A DNA stretch of 64,000 nucleotides from contig JAPLIB010000085.1 of the NCBI GenBank assembly GCA_026389335.1, positions 57,977-121,976 on the forward strand. The letters run 5' to 3'. The notes under the pieces were generated by a model. It saw nothing but the letters and a program-made list of their open reading frames with translations, made no database searches and had not been told where the DNA came from. A program made the translations under genes and the position numbers. Below are positions 53,571-64,000 of this stretch, one piece after another (position 1 is the first letter of the stretch; each line of letters starts with the position of its first letter). This DNA comes from Cyanobacteriota bacterium. Its GTDB lineage: Bacteria; Cyanobacteriota; Cyanobacteriia; PCC-6307; Cyanobiaceae.

Positions 53571-53840
53571 CGGATGCTTCAGGTCGGTTCAGATGATCCA
53601 GGTTCGTTTTGATGATCCAGATCGCTTCGGATGGTCCAGATCCAGATCGGATCCATCACAGACACCAGATCGGATCGATCAGACCAGATTCAGACCAGAT
53701 CGGATTGGATTGGATTTGATCAGAGTGGATCGGATTGGATTGGATTGGATCAGATCAGATCAGATCAGATCGCAGAAAATCTGATCAGATCGCGAAAAAT
53801 CAGATCGTGTAGACCGGAGAAGACAGGATCCGATCTCAGC
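53571..53840. repeat. GATC-saturated degenerate repeat (gatcagatc / gatcggattggatt units)
   Basis: About 20 GATC sites read in ~270 bp; core ggatcagatcagatcagatcagatc at 53746-53770. Confidence 0.85.
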
Positions 53841-53841
53841 T

Positions 53842-53963
53842 CTTGATTACCCAGAGCGCCTCGCCAATCCCGGATCAGTCCCAGCTAAGGCTTTATTCAT
53901 GTGGCGGGAACACGGCAGACCATGGGCAGCACGCCCCGCCAGGGTGTGAACTGGGTAATCAAG
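53842..53963. mobile_element. Candidate MITE-like element: 13-bp perfect terminal inverted repeats with 7-bp flanking direct repeats (alternatively a structured RNA)
   Basis: cttgattacccag (53842-53854) / ctgggtaatcaag (53951-53963); tctcagc at 53834-53840 and 53964-53970. Confidence 0.5.
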
Positions 53964-56309: not shown

Positions 56310-56593
56310 TGTTGGGGCGCTTATTGGTCATGCTTGGACCTGAGTTTGCGGCAGCAGCAGTCTGAACGGGGATGACTGCAACGAAGCCGCCAACTCAGCT
56401 CGGCCATCCAGCCCAGGCAGCACGGATTTGTCCCTGCCGTTGAGCAAAGGCTGACCTGGCCAAATCCCTCCCATGGTTGGGGTTGCGTCTGACGGAGTAA
56501 CGGTGCAGCAAGCGACCGGGACAGTAGAAAAACCAGGCGTGGGTTGGGCGGGAGAAAGCAAACCACTAGCCTGGGAGCCACTCTCCAGTTTTG

Positions 56594-58741
56594 ATGCCCC
56601 GCTACGCCTGCGTCGAACAGCACTCCGAGGAAGACTGCGGGGCGGCCTGTCTGGCCACGGTGGCCCGCCAATACGGCAAGCGACTGCCACTTTCAAGAAT
56701 TCGCGAGCTGGTGGGCACCGGCCAGGACGGCACCACTTTGCTGGGTCTGCGGCGGGGAGCCGATGCCCTCGGCTTCCAGGCCCGCGCCGTTCGGGCCAAT
56801 GCCCAACTGCTCGAGCAACTTGAGGCGATCCCCCTGCCGGCCATCTGCCACTGGAATGGCAATCACTGGGTGGTGCTGCATGGGCGCCGTGGACGCCAAT
56901 GGGTGATTGCTGATCCGGCCGTGGGCGTGCGCTTCCTCAGCCGGGAGCAACTGCTCCAAAATTGGACTAACGGCGTGATGCTGTTGCTCCAGCCCGACCA
57001 GGAGCGACTGGAGGAGCAACAGGAGGCGCCTCGCAATTCCTTTGGACGCTTTCTGCAGCAGGTGCTGCCCTATCGGGGGCTGGTGCTTCAGGTGCTGGCC
57101 ATCAACGCTGTGATTGGCCTGCTGGCGCTCACCACGCCGTTGCTGATGCAGTTCCTCACGGATGATGTCTTGGTGAGGAGGGATAGTCAACTGCTCGCCA
57201 GCCTGGGCCTGGGCATGTTGCTGCTCTTTGTCTTTCGGGCCCTGATGGAGCTCATCCAGGGACAACTGGTGAGCCATTTCTCACAGCGCCTGCTGCTGGC
57301 GACTGTGATGCAGTACGGACACAAGCTACTGCGATTGCCGATTGCCTGGTTCGATAGTCACCGTAGCGGCGAGGTGGTGAGCCGTATCGGTGATGTCTCC
57401 CGCATTAATCAGATTGTGGGACAATTGGTGATCAGCCTGCCCAGCTCCCTGTTCATCGCCGTGATTTCGCTGATGGTGATGCTGCAGTACAGCCAGGCGC
57501 TCACCGTCGCCTCACTCCTGGCGTTTGGCGTGGTCAGTGTTGTGGGTCTGATGTATGTGCCGTCCCTGCAGCAGATGACACGCCGCATGATCGTCGAATC
57601 GGCCGACAACCAGGGGTTTTTGGTGGAAACGGTTCGCGGTGCTCGCGTGCTCAAGACGACGGAAGCTCTACCCCAGGCCTGGGAGGAGTACCAGAGCAAT
57701 TTCGGCCGTATTTCCAATCTTTCCTGGCGCATGCAACGGCTGGGACTGTTCAGCTCGACCACTAATAGTCTGCTGTCAAACCTCACCACCCTGGGCTTGC
57801 TTTGGTATGGCAGCAGTTTCGTTATCGCTGGCCAACTGAGCATTGGCCAGCTGCTCGCCTTCAACGGTTTCAGCATCAATGTGCTTGGATTTTTAGAAAC
57901 CTTGATCGGCTTCACCGACGAGTTCATCACTGCTCAGGTGGTGTTTCGTCGGCTCGCCGAGGTGCTGGATGCTGATGTTGAGGATGCCGGTGCGGCCCAG
58001 AAGCCTGCGGTGCTGCTACCCCGCGGTTGCTCGTTGAGCTGCAACCATGTGAGCTTTCACCACCCTGGCAGGGTGGAGTTGATGAACGATCTCTGCCTGA
58101 CGATTCCAGGTGGGCGTTGCACAGCGCTGATCGGAGAATCGGGCTGCGGCAAGAGCACGCTGGTGAAGATGCTTGCCGGCCTCTACTTTCCCCAGGCCGG
58201 CACCATCCATTACGGCCCCTACGGGCTCCGGGATCTGTCGTTGGAATGCCTGCGGCAGCAGGTGGCCTTGGTGCCCCAGGAGGCAGAATTCTTCAATCGC
58301 TCCATCCTGGCTAACTTCCGTTTTGCCTATCCAGGCATGGACTTTGAGGCCGTGGTGGCTGCCTGTCAGCTCGCCATGGCCGATGACTTCATTCGCGACC
58401 TACCGGATGGCTACCAGACCGTGCTCGGAGAATTCGGTGCCAATCTTTCCGGAGGCCAGAGGCAGCGCCTGGCGATCGCCCGCGCTCTGGTGAGTGATCC
58501 AGAGGTGCTGCTGCTGGATGAGTCCACTGCTGCCCTTGATCCGGTGATGGAGCAACGGCTGCTGGATCGACTGCTGGCCCATCGCTCCTCGCGGACCACC
58601 TTGATGGTGAGCCATCGACCCAGCGTGATCATTCGCTGCGACTGGGTGGTGCTACTGCGAAACGGGCGCGTGGCTTTCCAGGGAGTGCCTGGGGAGATGG
58701 GCAAGGTCGCCGATCTCGTTCCTTACCTGCCCGCCGCATGA
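56594..58741 (+). CDS. Peptidase C39-containing ABC transporter (PCAT/bacteriocin-type exporter)
   Basis: C39: QHSEEDCGAACLATVARQYG, HWNGNHWVVLHG, IADPAVG; ABC: GESGCGKSTLVKMLAG, LSGGQRQRLAIARALVSDPEVLLLDESTAALD. Confidence 0.95.
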   Translation: MPRYACVEQHSEEDCGAACLATVARQYGKRLPLSRIRELVGTGQDGTTLLGLRRGADALGFQARAVRANAQLLEQLEAIPLPAICHWNGNHWVVLHGRRGRQWVIADPAVGVRFLSREQLLQNWTNGVMLLLQPDQERLEEQQEAPRNSFGRFLQQVLPYRGLVLQVLAINAVIGLLALTTPLLMQFLTDDVLVRRDSQLLASLGLGMLLLFVFRALMELIQGQLVSHFSQRLLLATVMQYGHKLLRLPIAWFDSHRSGEVVSRIGDVSRINQIVGQLVISLPSSLFIAVISLMVMLQYSQALTVASLLAFGVVSVVGLMYVPSLQQMTRRMIVESADNQGFLVETVRGARVLKTTEALPQAWEEYQSNFGRISNLSWRMQRLGLFSSTTNSLLSNLTTLGLLWYGSSFVIAGQLSIGQLLAFNGFSINVLGFLETLIGFTDEFITAQVVFRRLAEVLDADVEDAGAAQKPAVLLPRGCSLSCNHVSFHHPGRVELMNDLCLTIPGGRCTALIGESGCGKSTLVKMLAGLYFPQAGTIHYGPYGLRDLSLECLRQQVALVPQEAEFFNRSILANFRFAYPGMDFEAVVAACQLAMADDFIRDLPDGYQTVLGEFGANLSGGQRQRLAIARALVSDPEVLLLDESTAALDPVMEQRLLDRLLAHRSSRTTLMVSHRPSVIIRCDWVVLLRNGRVAFQGVPGEMGKVADLVPYLPAA

Positions 58742-59961
58742 CCGATCCCGCCCTGCCCATCGACCCTGAATCTGCCGCCGCCAAGCCAGCGCCCCTGGCC
58801 GCTCGCGAGCAGGCAGCGGCGGGACCGCTCGGATTTGCCGCTGGAGATCTCATCCCAATCCAGGAGGCGACTCTGGATGATTTCCTGCCCCCATTGAGCC
58901 CGTTGTTGCGCTGGGCAGGTGTGCTGATGGTCGCCAGCTTCCTGGGCAGCGTGGGGCTGATGGCGATCTGGCCGTACCGCGTTGTGGTTCGGGGCCAGGG
59001 CAGCCTGAGGCCCCAGGGCGAAACCACGGTGATCAATGCCCCCTTCTCCGGCCGGGTGCAACGCATCGCCGTGCGACCGGATCAGATGTTGAGCAGGGGT
59101 CAATTGCTGGCCGAACTTGATCCAATTGATCTGCTGGGCCGCCGCAATCAGCTCAAGGAGAGCCAGGTTGCCCTGACCCGGCAGGCTGAGGCGCTGCGGC
59201 TTGAGGCCGGCTCCAAGGCCAGGGAAACACGTCTGGACGTGGGCAAGAACCAGGCGGCCTTACAACTGGCCGAGTCCGAATACCGCCGCTATCAACAATT
59301 GGTGTCCTCCGGAGCGGCCTCCCGCTCCCAACTCGATGAAAAGCTGGCATCGTTCCAGGTGGCCAGCCGGGAACTGGCCAAGGCCCGGGAGGCTATCGAT
59401 GCCCAAACCATGCGCAGCCGCGCTGAACTGGCCCAGCAGAGCCGGCAACTGGCGGACGCCAGAGCGGAGCTGGGCCAGGTCGGCAGGGAGCTGGGACGCA
59501 CCGCCCTGCGGAGTCCGGTGGCCGGGGTGGTGCTGTCTCTGGGTCTGCGCAATCCACAGCAGATCGTCGCGACAGGCCAGGAACTGATGCGTATCGCCCC
59601 CAGCCATGGGGCCCTGGAAGTCAAGGTGATTGTGCCGGGAGAGAAGATCGACGCCGTGCAAAAGGGTCAGCGAGCTGATCTCCGCATCAGTGCCTGCCCC
59701 TATCCAGACTTCGGCACAATGCGGGCCCAGGTTGTCTCAATTGCACCCGATTCAGTGCGCGCGCCCCAGCCGGCTGGGGACGCGACGACTGCTGGCCGGG
59801 GCTATGAGGTGACGCTGGTGCCGGCACAGCAGCAGATGCGGGTCCGTGGTCGCAGCTGCCAACTGCGACAGGGTATGGATCTCAGCGCGGACATCACCAC
59901 CCGCAAGGAAACGGTGCTGCGGTTCCTGCTGCGCCAGGCCCGGCTCACGGTCGGCCTCTGA
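58738..59961 (+). CDS. HlyD-family membrane fusion/adaptor protein
   Basis: PYRVVVRGQGSLRPQGETTVINAPFSGRVQRIAVRPDQMLSRGQLLAELDP; coiled-coil and beta-barrel regions; ATGA overlap with PCAT. Confidence 0.93.
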   Translation: MTDPALPIDPESAAAKPAPLAAREQAAAGPLGFAAGDLIPIQEATLDDFLPPLSPLLRWAGVLMVASFLGSVGLMAIWPYRVVVRGQGSLRPQGETTVINAPFSGRVQRIAVRPDQMLSRGQLLAELDPIDLLGRRNQLKESQVALTRQAEALRLEAGSKARETRLDVGKNQAALQLAESEYRRYQQLVSSGAASRSQLDEKLASFQVASRELAKAREAIDAQTMRSRAELAQQSRQLADARAELGQVGRELGRTALRSPVAGVVLSLGLRNPQQIVATGQELMRIAPSHGALEVKVIVPGEKIDAVQKGQRADLRISACPYPDFGTMRAQVVSIAPDSVRAPQPAGDATTAGRGYEVTLVPAQQQMRVRGRSCQLRQGMDLSADITTRKETVLRFLLRQARLTVGL

Positions 59962-60004
59962 ACCCCAGGAGCGGCAGGCTGGCCTGGAACGCTGAGGTGG
60001 CTCG

Positions 60005-60140
60005 GAACGGTGCCGCAAACTGCTGAGACAAGATGCTGAGACAAACTGCTGAGGCAAACTGCTGAGGCAAAGCCCTGAAGCAAAGCCCTGAAGCAAACCG
60101 GTGAAGTAAAAACAGTGAACTTCAAACAGTGAACTAAAAT
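60005..60140. repeat. Degenerate 13-bp tandem array (caaactgctgagg)
   Basis: caaactgctgagg x2, caaagccctgaag x2, caaaccggtgaag, taaaaacagtgaa, and degenerate flanking units. Confidence 0.8.
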
Positions 60141-60197
60141 GGTGAAATCAAACGGCAAGCCGGAGTCTGGACACTTAGCTTGGTACAAGGTTGACCG

Positions 60198-60920
60198 ATG
60201 ACAATGATGGATGCATTAACGCGACTTGGCGAACCTTTTCTGGGCGATCTGCAATCGCTCTATGCCAATCAACCCCAGACAGGCCTCGATGGCAAGAGCT
60301 ACGCTATCGATGCGTCAACAAGGATCTCCGTTGAGGAGGGATTATTTCTGCATGACAGCTGTCGCAACGCCGCGATGACGGCCACGTTGGAAGTTGGCAT
60401 GGGCTATGGATTCAGTACCACCTTTTTGCTGGCTGCCCTGGATGCCAATGGTGGCGGTCGCCACATTGCCATAGATCCCTATCAGCACAGCGACTGGGAT
60501 GGCATTGGTGAAAGTCGTATGGCCTCACTGCTGCCGCGCACACAGAATCTGAAACATCACGATTTCACCCTGATTCACGATCGCTCCGACCATGCCGCAA
60601 TTGACCTGGAACGCAGCGGAGCAAGTTTCGATCTACTGTTCATCGATGGCTATCATCGTTTCGATGATGTGCTGATTGATGTTTATCTATTGACTAGATT
60701 ATGCCGCCCCGATGGCCTGATTGTATTGCACGATCTGTGGCTTCCCAGCGTGCAGGCTGTGCAATCATTTCTCTGTCACAATCGCCCTGATCTGCAGCCC
60801 ATCCCGACGAGTTGCACCAATCTGGCGGTCTTCCGTCGCCGTGATACAGACCAACGCAACTGGGATCATTTTGTGCCTTTCCCGATGGCATTCGAGATCG
60901 AGATGGCCAGCGAGAGCTGA
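60198..60920 (+). CDS. Class I SAM-dependent methyltransferase (Methyltransf_24-like)
   Basis: LEVGMGYGFSTTFLLAAL; FDLLFIDGYHRFDDVLID; PDGLIVLHDLW. Confidence 0.8.
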   Translation: MTMMDALTRLGEPFLGDLQSLYANQPQTGLDGKSYAIDASTRISVEEGLFLHDSCRNAAMTATLEVGMGYGFSTTFLLAALDANGGGRHIAIDPYQHSDWDGIGESRMASLLPRTQNLKHHDFTLIHDRSDHAAIDLERSGASFDLLFIDGYHRFDDVLIDVYLLTRLCRPDGLIVLHDLWLPSVQAVQSFLCHNRPDLQPIPTSCTNLAVFRRRDTDQRNWDHFVPFPMAFEIEMASES

Positions 60921-60958: not shown

Positions 60959-62887
60959 TCAAGCGGCCGGCAGCCAGTCGATCTGGCCGAGCTTGGCCAA
61001 CCACACCAGGCTCAGCCAGAGCTGGTGGCGGCGGCTTTCGGGAAAACTGGCCAGCAGCTGCTCGACGCTGTGATCAGCCCCATCCGCCAGAAGGTCGAGC
61101 AAGGCGCCATTCTCCTGCCCCGTTCCGCGCAGGCCCTGGAAGAAGTGATCCAAGGCCACCGAAGGTTGATCTGTGCCGGAGGGGGTGGTGAGCACCCGGC
61201 GCACCATCAGCTGGGGATCCAGCGTGGCCGTGGCGAAATGGGCGAAATCATGGAATGGATCGCCACGCAACGGCCGCCGCTGGCGTCTGGCCACCAACGC
61301 ATCTGCCGCAGCCGCACCGTGGCGGCGCCGTTCGCTGAGATGATCAAACAATTCCAGATACTGGGAGACGATCCGGGACCAGTCGAACTGCTCTTGAGCA
61401 CGCCGGCGACCGGCCGTGCCCATGGCAGTCCGCAGACTGGGAGAACGGATCAACTGCAACAGGGCCTCGGTGGTGCGACCGATATGAACGGCCATATGTT
61501 GAGCCACCGAGCCCATATAGAACGGCCAATCCAGAATCTCCAGGGCTTCGAGATTGGCCAGCATTGAACCCTGGGGTACGGGCCCGGGGCCCAGGGTCGG
61601 GATCAGGAAACCATCAATACCATCGCGCACGATCAAGCGGTAACCATCCCAATCGCTGAGCACCACCGGGACCCCTGCCGCCATCGCCTCCAGCGGAGCC
61701 TGGCCGAAGGTTTCCAGAATCGTGTCGGAAAGGAGCAAGAAGATGTCAGCGCCGGCCCAGCACTCCGCCACCAGGTCCGGATCATTGCCATCGAGAATCA
61801 GCACGTTCACATCCGGGGCACAGAGGCGCGCCGCGTCCCGGTAGCGGGTTTCATCGTCTTCGCCAAGCGGAAACCAGCCAGCCATCACGAAGTGCAGACG
61901 AAGGTTCGGACGTTCTGCCGCCGAAACCTGAGCCGCAGCCTGTAAAGCCCGCAGCATCGCCTGCGGAAAGGCCTTGTCAAAACAGGACAGGCGCCCGAGG
62001 TGGAACACCATCACATCGCCGTCCTCGATGGCATGGCTCTGGCGGAACCGGCGACGCGCCTCGGCATCGCCACCTTGGGCAGCCAGCCGCTCGGCATCCA
62101 CGCCCAGGGGAATCATGGGCAGCTGGGGCCGCGTCAACCGCTGCAGGCCGAGGCGTTGGCGCAGATCGTCCTCCCAGTCATCGAGGTTGGCCACCACCGC
62201 TGCGTGCAGGCTCGGGGAGGTGCAGATGAGCGCATCCCACTCCTGCAGCGGAGCCAGCAGGGAGGCGAGCATTTTCTCGCGATGTACGGGAGAGGCAAAG
62301 GCAAAGATCGAACCGACGATGCTGTAGGCCTGTCCATGGCCAGCCTGCTGACGGATCCAGGCCAGATCGCTGAGATAGGGCTGGCCGGAGAGCAACATGC
62401 CAGTCTGCGCGGCAATGCCACTGTTCAGCACTGATCCCACGGTGATGGCACAGCCGCTCGAGCCGTTCGGCAGGAATTCCCGCTGCAGGGCCTGGCTGGA
62501 GAGGGGCTGGTGACCGAGAACATCAATCTGCCGGTAGCCGCCATGGCTGGCCAGGGCCCTGAAGGCCCCAGCATTGGCGATTAGGCGGCCGTAGGGATTT
62601 GGGGGCGGCGCGATGGTGCCGGATGGCAAATAGATCGCCAACCGATCGCGCACCGCCACAGAACGACCGACCCCACCGATGACGGCATCCAGGTCTTGCT
62701 CATCGAAATCGTCAGCTAGCGGCGCGCCGATCCGAAAATCGCGGAGCTCTTCAGCGCTGAGTGCAAAACCGGCGCCATTGGCAATGGCAGCCGCCTGCTC
62801 CGGGTTGGTGGCCTGCTCGAGCGCACTGCGCAATTCTGGTGTGGCCTCCACCGCCACGATGAAATCCAGCAGCGTGTCGGAGGGCAT
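60959..62887 (-). CDS. GT4-like glycosyltransferase with N-terminal Nif11-type leader domain ending in GG
   Basis: N-term MPSDTLLDFIVAVEATPELRSALEQATNPEQAAAIANGAGFALSAEELRDF...DEQDLDAVIGG; GT: VMVFHLGRLSCFDKAFPQ, ADIFLLLSDTILETFGQAPLEAMAAGVPVVLSDWDGYRLIVRDGIDGFLIP. Confidence 0.85.
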   Translation of the reverse strand: MPSDTLLDFIVAVEATPELRSALEQATNPEQAAAIANGAGFALSAEELRDFRIGAPLADDFDEQDLDAVIGGVGRSVAVRDRLAIYLPSGTIAPPPNPYGRLIANAGAFRALASHGGYRQIDVLGHQPLSSQALQREFLPNGSSGCAITVGSVLNSGIAAQTGMLLSGQPYLSDLAWIRQQAGHGQAYSIVGSIFAFASPVHREKMLASLLAPLQEWDALICTSPSLHAAVVANLDDWEDDLRQRLGLQRLTRPQLPMIPLGVDAERLAAQGGDAEARRRFRQSHAIEDGDVMVFHLGRLSCFDKAFPQAMLRALQAAAQVSAAERPNLRLHFVMAGWFPLGEDDETRYRDAARLCAPDVNVLILDGNDPDLVAECWAGADIFLLLSDTILETFGQAPLEAMAAGVPVVLSDWDGYRLIVRDGIDGFLIPTLGPGPVPQGSMLANLEALEILDWPFYMGSVAQHMAVHIGRTTEALLQLIRSPSLRTAMGTAGRRRAQEQFDWSRIVSQYLELFDHLSERRRHGAAAADALVARRQRRPLRGDPFHDFAHFATATLDPQLMVRRVLTTPSGTDQPSVALDHFFQGLRGTGQENGALLDLLADGADHSVEQLLASFPESRRHQLWLSLVWLAKLGQIDWLPAA

Positions 62888-62982: not shown

Positions 62983-63738
62983 ATGTCTCGTGCTCTGGTT
63001 GTGGTCACCTGGTGCGGATCGGGCCCGCCCCTCTCCAGGCTCGAGTTGGATGCGGAGCCCGATTTTGAACTGGTCTGCTTTGATTACAGCGGCACGCAGA
63101 CTGTCAAATGGCTACCGGAAACAGGAGTGCGTCTGCTGACTCGAGCAACCGAATGCAAAGGCCAGATCCTGGATGCCCTGGCAGAGACTCTGGCCTCAAC
63201 AGAGGTTGTCTATGACTATATCAGCGTGATCGACGACGATGTTGAGATCAGCTTATCCGCGATCAATCAAGCCTTGCGCATCGGCCGGCGGCTGGGCTTG
63301 CTCACGTTCAGCCCCTCGCTGACAAAGGATTCCCTAGGCTACCACAGCCACATGTTCCAGCGGGAGGGCTTCCTTTATCGCCGGGTGCTGTGGGTGGAGA
63401 TCATGATGCCGTTCATCGCCATGGATTTATTTATGGCTGCGGCCCCCTACTATTCCCTGGCCATCAGTGCCGCCGGGATTGATTGTTTCATATATCCCGT
63501 ATTGGCGCGGCTGTTATCGCTCGAGGGTGGCCATGCCGTGTTCGACTGTGTCGTAGCCGCCCATCGCCGCGAGGTGACGTCTGGCCAACGGCGCTTCTCG
63601 AACGGCTGTACGGCGATGGAGGAAGCCGGGCAGCTGCGTTGGCTGTGTCAACAGCTACTGGCTGAGCAGAAACCCGAACTCCTGCTGGACCGAGACCTAC
63701 GGCTGCTGCTCGGATTGGCTGGCCACTCCTGCGTATGA
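62983..63738 (+). CDS. DUF707/glycosyltransferase-like protein
   Basis: Short N-terminal Rossmann-like strand MSRALVVVTWCGSG; DDD motif YISVIDDDVEISLSAINQAL; overall DUF707-like layout. Confidence 0.55.
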   Translation: MSRALVVVTWCGSGPPLSRLELDAEPDFELVCFDYSGTQTVKWLPETGVRLLTRATECKGQILDALAETLASTEVVYDYISVIDDDVEISLSAINQALRIGRRLGLLTFSPSLTKDSLGYHSHMFQREGFLYRRVLWVEIMMPFIAMDLFMAAAPYYSLAISAAGIDCFIYPVLARLLSLEGGHAVFDCVVAAHRREVTSGQRRFSNGCTAMEEAGQLRWLCQQLLAEQKPELLLDRDLRLLLGLAGHSCV

Positions 63739-64000
63739 CGGCCGCCAACAGGGACAGACTACAAGAGCTGGAAGAACGGGTCTGAGCTGTCGCCGGCTCA
63801 AGCGCCACAATCAGGCGAAGAACATGGTAAAATCATGCTGTTGATTCATATTTGTCCCGGCGTATCCGTTCAGGGGTCGTGATGCTCGCCGCGAACGGTG
63901 GCCCCATTTGAGCCCTTGACGCCAGCTTGAACCCCGGTTGCATTTCAGGTAGAGATCGCCTGCGATGACCATTCCTCCGGCCGGGATTTCAGAAGCAGAC

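Follow-up and report, generated by a model that had tools for sequence, protein, structure and literature searches.

Leaders normally mark small peptides as substrates for modification and export, and in the Nif11 RiPP precursors (TIGR03798, N11P; prochlorosins) a leader that ends in a double glycine (GG) precedes a short core. In borosins a RiPP precursor is fused to its own methyltransferase, and the core is carried and modified in cis, whereas the transferases of glycocins are SunS-like GT2 (GT-A) enzymes. Glycocin clusters combine a glycosyltransferase with a GG-leader peptide and a C39 exporter (PMC12457901). Among cyanobacteria, the bacteriocin clusters of groups I–VII have a short C39-ABC protein and HlyD, and in the EbfG/PteB system of S. 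elongatus small GG proteins are matured by a C39 exporter; the portions of PMC3140520 and PMC4997328 behind these two statements describe neither a leader-fused glycosyltransferase nor a GEA motif. C39 domains bind leader helices in hydrophobic pockets, which in LahT147 seat the leader residues V-4, L-7 and L-12, and cut after the GG (PMC6363468). Nif11 leaders are also already known on folded domains, i.e. in the picocyanobacterial ‘Nif11 domain/cupin’ proteins (PMC10783134), in which a Nif11 leader runs into a small cupin domain, GG marking the junction, and the combination is already named in annotation.

The locus described here lies near one end of a 64000-nucleotide stretch of DNA, which was analysed whole (the window) and whose last position, 64000, is also the end of contig C3. 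Its features are as follows.

62672–62887, minus strand: Nif11-type leader, fusion residues 1–72, with IGG at its end (PF07862, TIGR03798, AlphaFold2 helices).
62654–62728, minus strand: tether, residues 54–78, with the C39 recognition helix (V-4, L-7, F-12) and the GG at 62672–62677 (AlphaFold2 pLDDT <50).
60959–62644, minus strand: GT4/GT-B glycosyltransferase, residues 82–642 plus the stop codon (PF00534, AlphaFold2, PDB comparison).
61688–61714, minus strand: EX7E motif ETFGQAPLE of retaining GT4 enzymes, residues 392–400 (read in the translation).
56591–58741, plus strand: ABC exporter containing a C39 peptidase (PCAT; PF03412, E=6e-37, with ABC_membrane and ABC_tran).
58738–59961, plus strand: HlyD-type membrane fusion protein (HlyD_3, E=6e-21; TIGR01843, 149 bits, below cut-off).
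60198–60920, plus strand: Methyltransf_24 methyltransferase, a conserved cluster partner (PF13578, E=6e-20).
62983–63738, plus strand: unannotated protein with an invariant IDDD, a putative GT-A transferase, divergent from the glycosyltransferase gene and with homologues in the clusters of relatives.
63965–64000, plus strand: first codons of an ORF truncated at the end of the contig (MTIPPAGISEAD...), possibly the beginning of a GG-leader peptide and listed as a lead only.

Close to the position of the last of these, a GG-leader ORF is found in a related genome. The residues of the C39 triad are present in the exporter by motif (EEDCGAACL, GNHWVVL and IADP, read in the translation), and the exporter and the fused glycosyltransferase (GT) lie on opposite strands and do not form one operon. 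Homologues of the 62983–63738 protein, 38–41% identical, occur in the GT clusters of two family genomes (G081 and G284); a fold assignment was abandoned, as the AlphaFold2 model was too poor (pLDDT 58.7) and gave only weak GT-A matches. Elsewhere in the window, 53593–53846 is a repetitive stretch, probably a short tandem repeat, whose overlapping open frames have many DRIGLD/DQIRSD units.

A complete Nif11 leader is joined here, in frame, to an intact GT4 enzyme. The ORF at 60959–62887 on the minus strand encodes 642 amino acids without internal stop codons, and its translation is the text given in the initial annotation. PF07862 matched residues 1–48 (E=1.5e-8, 35.2 bits against a curated cut-off of 23.8), and TIGR03798 (leader_Nif11) covered residues 1–72 over its full length (1–68 of 68; E=3.5e-10, 40.0 bits, cut-off 32.3), the closing GG being residues 71–72. 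These profile matches, both above the curated cut-offs, bear out the initial annotation, which had read a Nif11-type leader and GG on a full-length glycosyltransferase from the letters alone and had suggested such a search. The leader has the complete length, the recognition helix and the GG of the Nif11 RiPP precursors, but where those continue into a short core, here the GG is followed by a glycosyltransferase of approximately 570 residues, with no GEA or other core. In the same way it resembles the Nif11/cupin proteins in placing leader and GG before a folded domain, although that domain is a glycosyltransferase, and this combination appears to be new; a leader–cupin fusion of the known kind, with LLGG at the junction, is also found elsewhere in this genome (C71:65541–65663, L017). 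The residues V-4, L-7 and F-12 ahead of the GG agree with the hydrophobic -4, -7 and -12 positions of C39 substrates (PMC6363468). GC content by codon position was alike in the leader (0.75/0.44/0.69) and in the remaining gene (0.71/0.48/0.75), so the leader looks coding.

Behind the leader, Glycos_transf_1 (PF00534) matched residues 279–430 (E=1.5e-18), and E392, T393, F394, G395, P398 and E400 of the EX7E motif were invariant across 35 homologues. The AlphaFold2 model of the fusion had a mean pLDDT of 85.7 and showed a GT-B fold from residue 82 onward, mostly at pLDDT 85–98, to which the closest solved folds were the GT4 enzymes MshA, PimB′, BshA and HepE; the enzyme thus has both the GT-B fold and the EX7E motif of GT4, and the initial reading of an intact transferase holds. 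Its C-terminus, DWLPAA, aligns with those of the homologues. In the leader, the model placed helices at residues 6–13, 17–24, 29–38, 45–48 and 64–70; those within residues 6–48 were short, with blocks of pLDDT up to 84, whereas residues 54–78, including the GG, fell below 50 and were disordered. The input alignment for this model comprised 35 GT sequences and no leader homologues, a mixed alignment of Nif11 peptides and GTs having been dropped because MAFFT misplaced the peptides. By this prediction the leader forms a module of its own, linked to the enzyme by a flexible tether that contains the GG, and is not an integral part of the GT fold; an integral fold was among the findings that the initial annotation had named as refuting its reading. 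A domain profile search of the translation matched no leader-recognition domain in the GT. The chain shares with borosins the joining of a precursor part to a modifying enzyme, but it carries the leader alone, at the other end, and we rejected a borosin identity as there is no core peptide in it. A glycocin identity was likewise rejected, since the enzyme is GT4 by match and GT-B by model and not a SunS-like GT2; in addition, GEA cores are not known from glycocins.

Matches to the GT were found in 60 of 400 family genomes (its own genome included, and the set being drawn evenly from a larger group), and none other than the own match reached the Nif11 domain at residues 1–48; ten further GT loci from a GTDB scan had starts at residues 70–83. 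No second Nif11–GT fusion was therefore present among the family genomes and GTDB loci searched, in agreement with the initial view that a leader on a whole enzyme is unusual. Seemingly longer homologues, matched from residue 51, 52 or 71, have no leader, their alignments crossing a stop codon. Orthologues that start after the GG had been named initially as a finding that would count against the fusion; every homologue found does start there, at the enzyme itself, yet the fusion still stands, and the leader is seen to be an extra part that the rest of the GT family does not need. No relative was found in viral contigs, and in plasmids there were only distant leaderless GTs (the one annotated neighbourhood examined being polysaccharide synthesis). 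The GT sequences of two family genomes (G070 and G259) recur in loci of named Prochlorococcus and Synechococcus records, so the family is probably Cyanobiaceae. A limited search of the open-access literature found no description of a Nif11–glycosyltransferase fusion or of a GEA cluster.

When the leader alone was searched against the 400 family genomes, the Nif11 ORFs that it matched were no more than 43% identical, and the longest other frame that it matched, 418 amino acids, is pseudouridine-synthase-like and not a glycosyltransferase. A single open frame in L113 (G328:C87) runs from a pseudouridine-synthase-like part (RluD-type, by eye) into a Nif11 domain and is either a fusion or an overlapping start. 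The own genome has 20 Nif11 matches, the fusion leader among them, 18 of which are above cut-off. A prochlorosin-like set of Nif11 precursors is found on C108 (L030, L112) and C158 (L031), accompanied on C108 by a LanC-domain protein (1121-amino-acid frame), and at least two of these precursors (C158:35042 and C108:1640) have in-frame stop codons in the leader.

In a tree of the 35 homologues, the window GT fell inside a clade of ten (SH-aLRT 100, by a quick method) that comprises all GTs found in peptide clusters and no others, the tree requiring one state change where shuffles gave 8.8; one of the nine other members, L069, is a near-copy of L068 on a contig piece too short to show a peptide. 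Methyltransferase homologues adjoin the GT in six loci and are 51–54% identical to the window gene at 60198–60920, and the clade loci also have in common an alpha/beta hydrolase and a 235-amino-acid unannotated protein with GT-A-like features; one GT-A-like gene of relatives (L127:3919–4623) gave no match in the own genome in a search run without a positive control. For the exporters of L065, L066, L127 and L129 the best-scoring models were TIGR03796 and TIGR03797 of the NHLM systems, and L127 also has a partner of the TIGR03794 type; the cut-offs were passed only by L066 (TIGR03796, 868 against 853) and L065 (TIGR03797, 847 against 709); the window exporter scored 419 bits with TIGR03796, the NHLM equivalog, below its cut-off of 853. 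The taxon labels of L065–L071 are metagenome-bin labels and may be wrong. The window holds the exporter, the methyltransferase, the fused GT and one putative GT-A gene of a cluster that combines a GT4 enzyme, a class-24 methyltransferase, a hydrolase, a putative GT-A protein, C39/NHLM export and GG/GEA peptides, and that is apparently undescribed. The initial annotation had been right about the leader and its GG, about the GT being intact and about how rare the fusion is, but it had missed this membership of a GG-leader peptide cluster.

Two further gene associations were noted in these neighbourhoods. Sister-clade GTs (L119, and also L118, L120 and L126) lie beside group-I-like secretion operons with an ABC protein, a rotamase-family gene, HlyD and a conserved SecA gene; in L119 the ABC protein has cNMP-binding and weak C39 domains, and an RTX-type protein is present. 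In addition, a conserved Nif11 protein that stands alone, lacks a GG and has the tail WQL..VA.WQ...WWQ adjoins the hydrolase in the clusters (L065, 11703–11960; L066, 11197–11454; L067, 5853–6104; L071, 4375–4629; L127, 3560–3859), and a 55% identical protein is found in the own genome at C110:6666–6920.

The peptides of the cluster came to light in the relatives, where small GG-leader ORFs, whose tails have EA or GEA at the end or inside, lie beside the GT in G081, G140, G284, L065, L066 and L068; the motif scan that found them required no core sequence. When GEA itself was scanned for, L067, L071 and another ORF in L068 joined these. The precursor and GT genes of G140 and G284 share a strand, and the end of the former meets the start of the latter. 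GEA occurred in nine of 12 cluster peptides, a set in which some were kept by GEA-independent patterns and near-copies were counted, as against none of 48 ordinary Nif11 cores. A profile built from the GEA peptides of the relatives gave no convincing match in the own genome (best E=0.05), and the own precursor was reached through G032, a genome of the same genus that is 98.4% identical over the exporter region 56351–60459. G032 is without 2.8 kb that span the entire Nif11–GT, and past the window's last gene it has a GG-leader ORF. With this leader as a query, of which GEA was no part, a GG/GEA precursor was found at the start of the own contig C30 (E=4.6e-6), with the core GKFTQAWFQTQVGEAAFSVVGCLKSKLLGMHYITVGEAAYTGGK and with a sister in G032. 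The cluster hydrolase is also on C30 (46–49% identical), and we infer that C3 and C30 are physically linked. The C30 precursor has a short, non-Nif11 leader, whereas the relatives' GEA precursors beside the GT have Nif11-like leaders. The deletion in G032 is itself a natural one (L148, G032:C123, 7208–7215), in which the Nif11–GT is gone and the methyltransferase and the 62983 gene are truncated.

As the GT belongs to the peptide-cluster clade and the window and C30 hold parts of the cluster, its most likely role is the modification of GG/GEA peptides in the cytosol. Our preferred reading, put forward tentatively, adds to this that its leader docks to the C39 exporter. A cytosolic GT4 of a peptide-modifying and export cluster would then carry, joined in frame, a Nif11 double-glycine leader; the GT would glycosylate GG-leader precursors with GEA cores, alongside the methyltransferase, the hydrolase and the putative GT-A protein, and the neighbouring C39/HlyD system would afterwards export the modified peptides. 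On its tether, the leader would serve as a docking tag in the C39 groove that recognizes precursor leaders and would hold the GT at the export gate, possibly to be clipped later, after the GG; such cleavage could make the docking short-lived. Against docking stand the occurrence of the fusion, with its leader and GG, in one genome only, the lack of the leader in all relatives, the deletion of the gene in a 98%-identical one and the placement of GT and exporter on opposite strands, outside a common operon. The leader is also nearer to ordinary Nif11 leaders than to GG/GEA leaders, scoring 103 with the former and at most 42 with the GT-adjacent precursors of relatives, although the ordinary set was collected with the fusion leader and is biased in their favour.

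The strongest rival, given a fusion without a second example and a locus prone to decay, is that a local rearrangement joined the leader neutrally or nearly so to a GT that works with the leader idle or clipped off. This we consider rather unlikely: the recognition positions, the GG and all other leader features are intact, and the GT is only 52–55% identical to its nearest relatives, although the fusion itself could be of any age. It would nevertheless suit a single occurrence in a family that works without a leader, in a genome rich in Nif11 genes and at a locus marked by the G032 deletion, a decayed methyltransferase copy on C66 and divergent sequence at the contig end. That copy (C66:33852–34715, L149) has a stop codon and is accompanied by an HlyD remnant and, next to it, a GG-leader ORF without GEA. 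Origin of the fusion from some neighbouring precursor is possible; that the GT and a GEA precursor overlapping it were joined by a mere frameshift was discarded, as the other frames give no GEA core and the leader scores much higher with the (biased) set of ordinary Nif11 leaders than with the GT-adjacent precursors. That an assembly or sequencing error joined two genes is very improbable. The fusion is known from one genome, and only 1.1 kb separate the start of its gene from the end of the contig, but the join is in frame and falls exactly on the domain borders; the sequence on either side has coding statistics, and the other frames meet no stop nearby. As these two frames extend 30–50 codons into the GT before they stop, a single sequencing indel between two overlapping genes is not an easy explanation of the fusion.

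Two further readings give the leader another role. It might sit on a leader-binding site of the GT itself and keep the enzyme switched on, so that substrates would need no matching leader, a natural counterpart of engineered leader–enzyme fusions. The short, non-Nif11 leader of the C30 precursor, set against the Nif11-like leaders in relatives, would suit such an activator, but the disorder of residues 54–78, the modest confidence of the module and the failure to match a recognition domain in the GT make it unlikely, although the alignment behind the model contained no leader homologues. Export of the whole GT, cut after the GG to a mature enzyme beginning VGRSVAV, appears at least as unlikely. 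The GG leader with V-4, L-7 and F-12, the C39 triad and the HlyD partner in the same window would allow it; however, GT4 enzymes require cytosolic nucleotide sugars, which are absent outside the cell, the cargo would be some 570 residues of compact GT-B fold, and the conserved cluster already has small GG substrates of its own. Of the two functions suggested in the initial annotation, in-cis docking would thus fit better, and export with trimming, while possible, is unlikely to be the purpose of the leader.

It is possible, although we would not yet call it probable, that this is a natural fusion in which a substrate-type leader recruits or activates a RiPP tailoring enzyme, and that the GG-leader peptides with GEA cores to which it belongs are a glycosylated family not described before. 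If so, the tag that marks peptides would also gather tailoring enzymes at the exporter or switch them on, a use of leader and enzyme that to our knowledge has so far been achieved by engineering. The fusion also led to a conserved cluster that occurs both in picocyanobacteria and in metagenome bins labelled as other phyla, and this combination of GT4, methyltransferase, hydrolase, putative GT-A, C39 and GEA components is a candidate new class of glycosylated ribosomal peptides.
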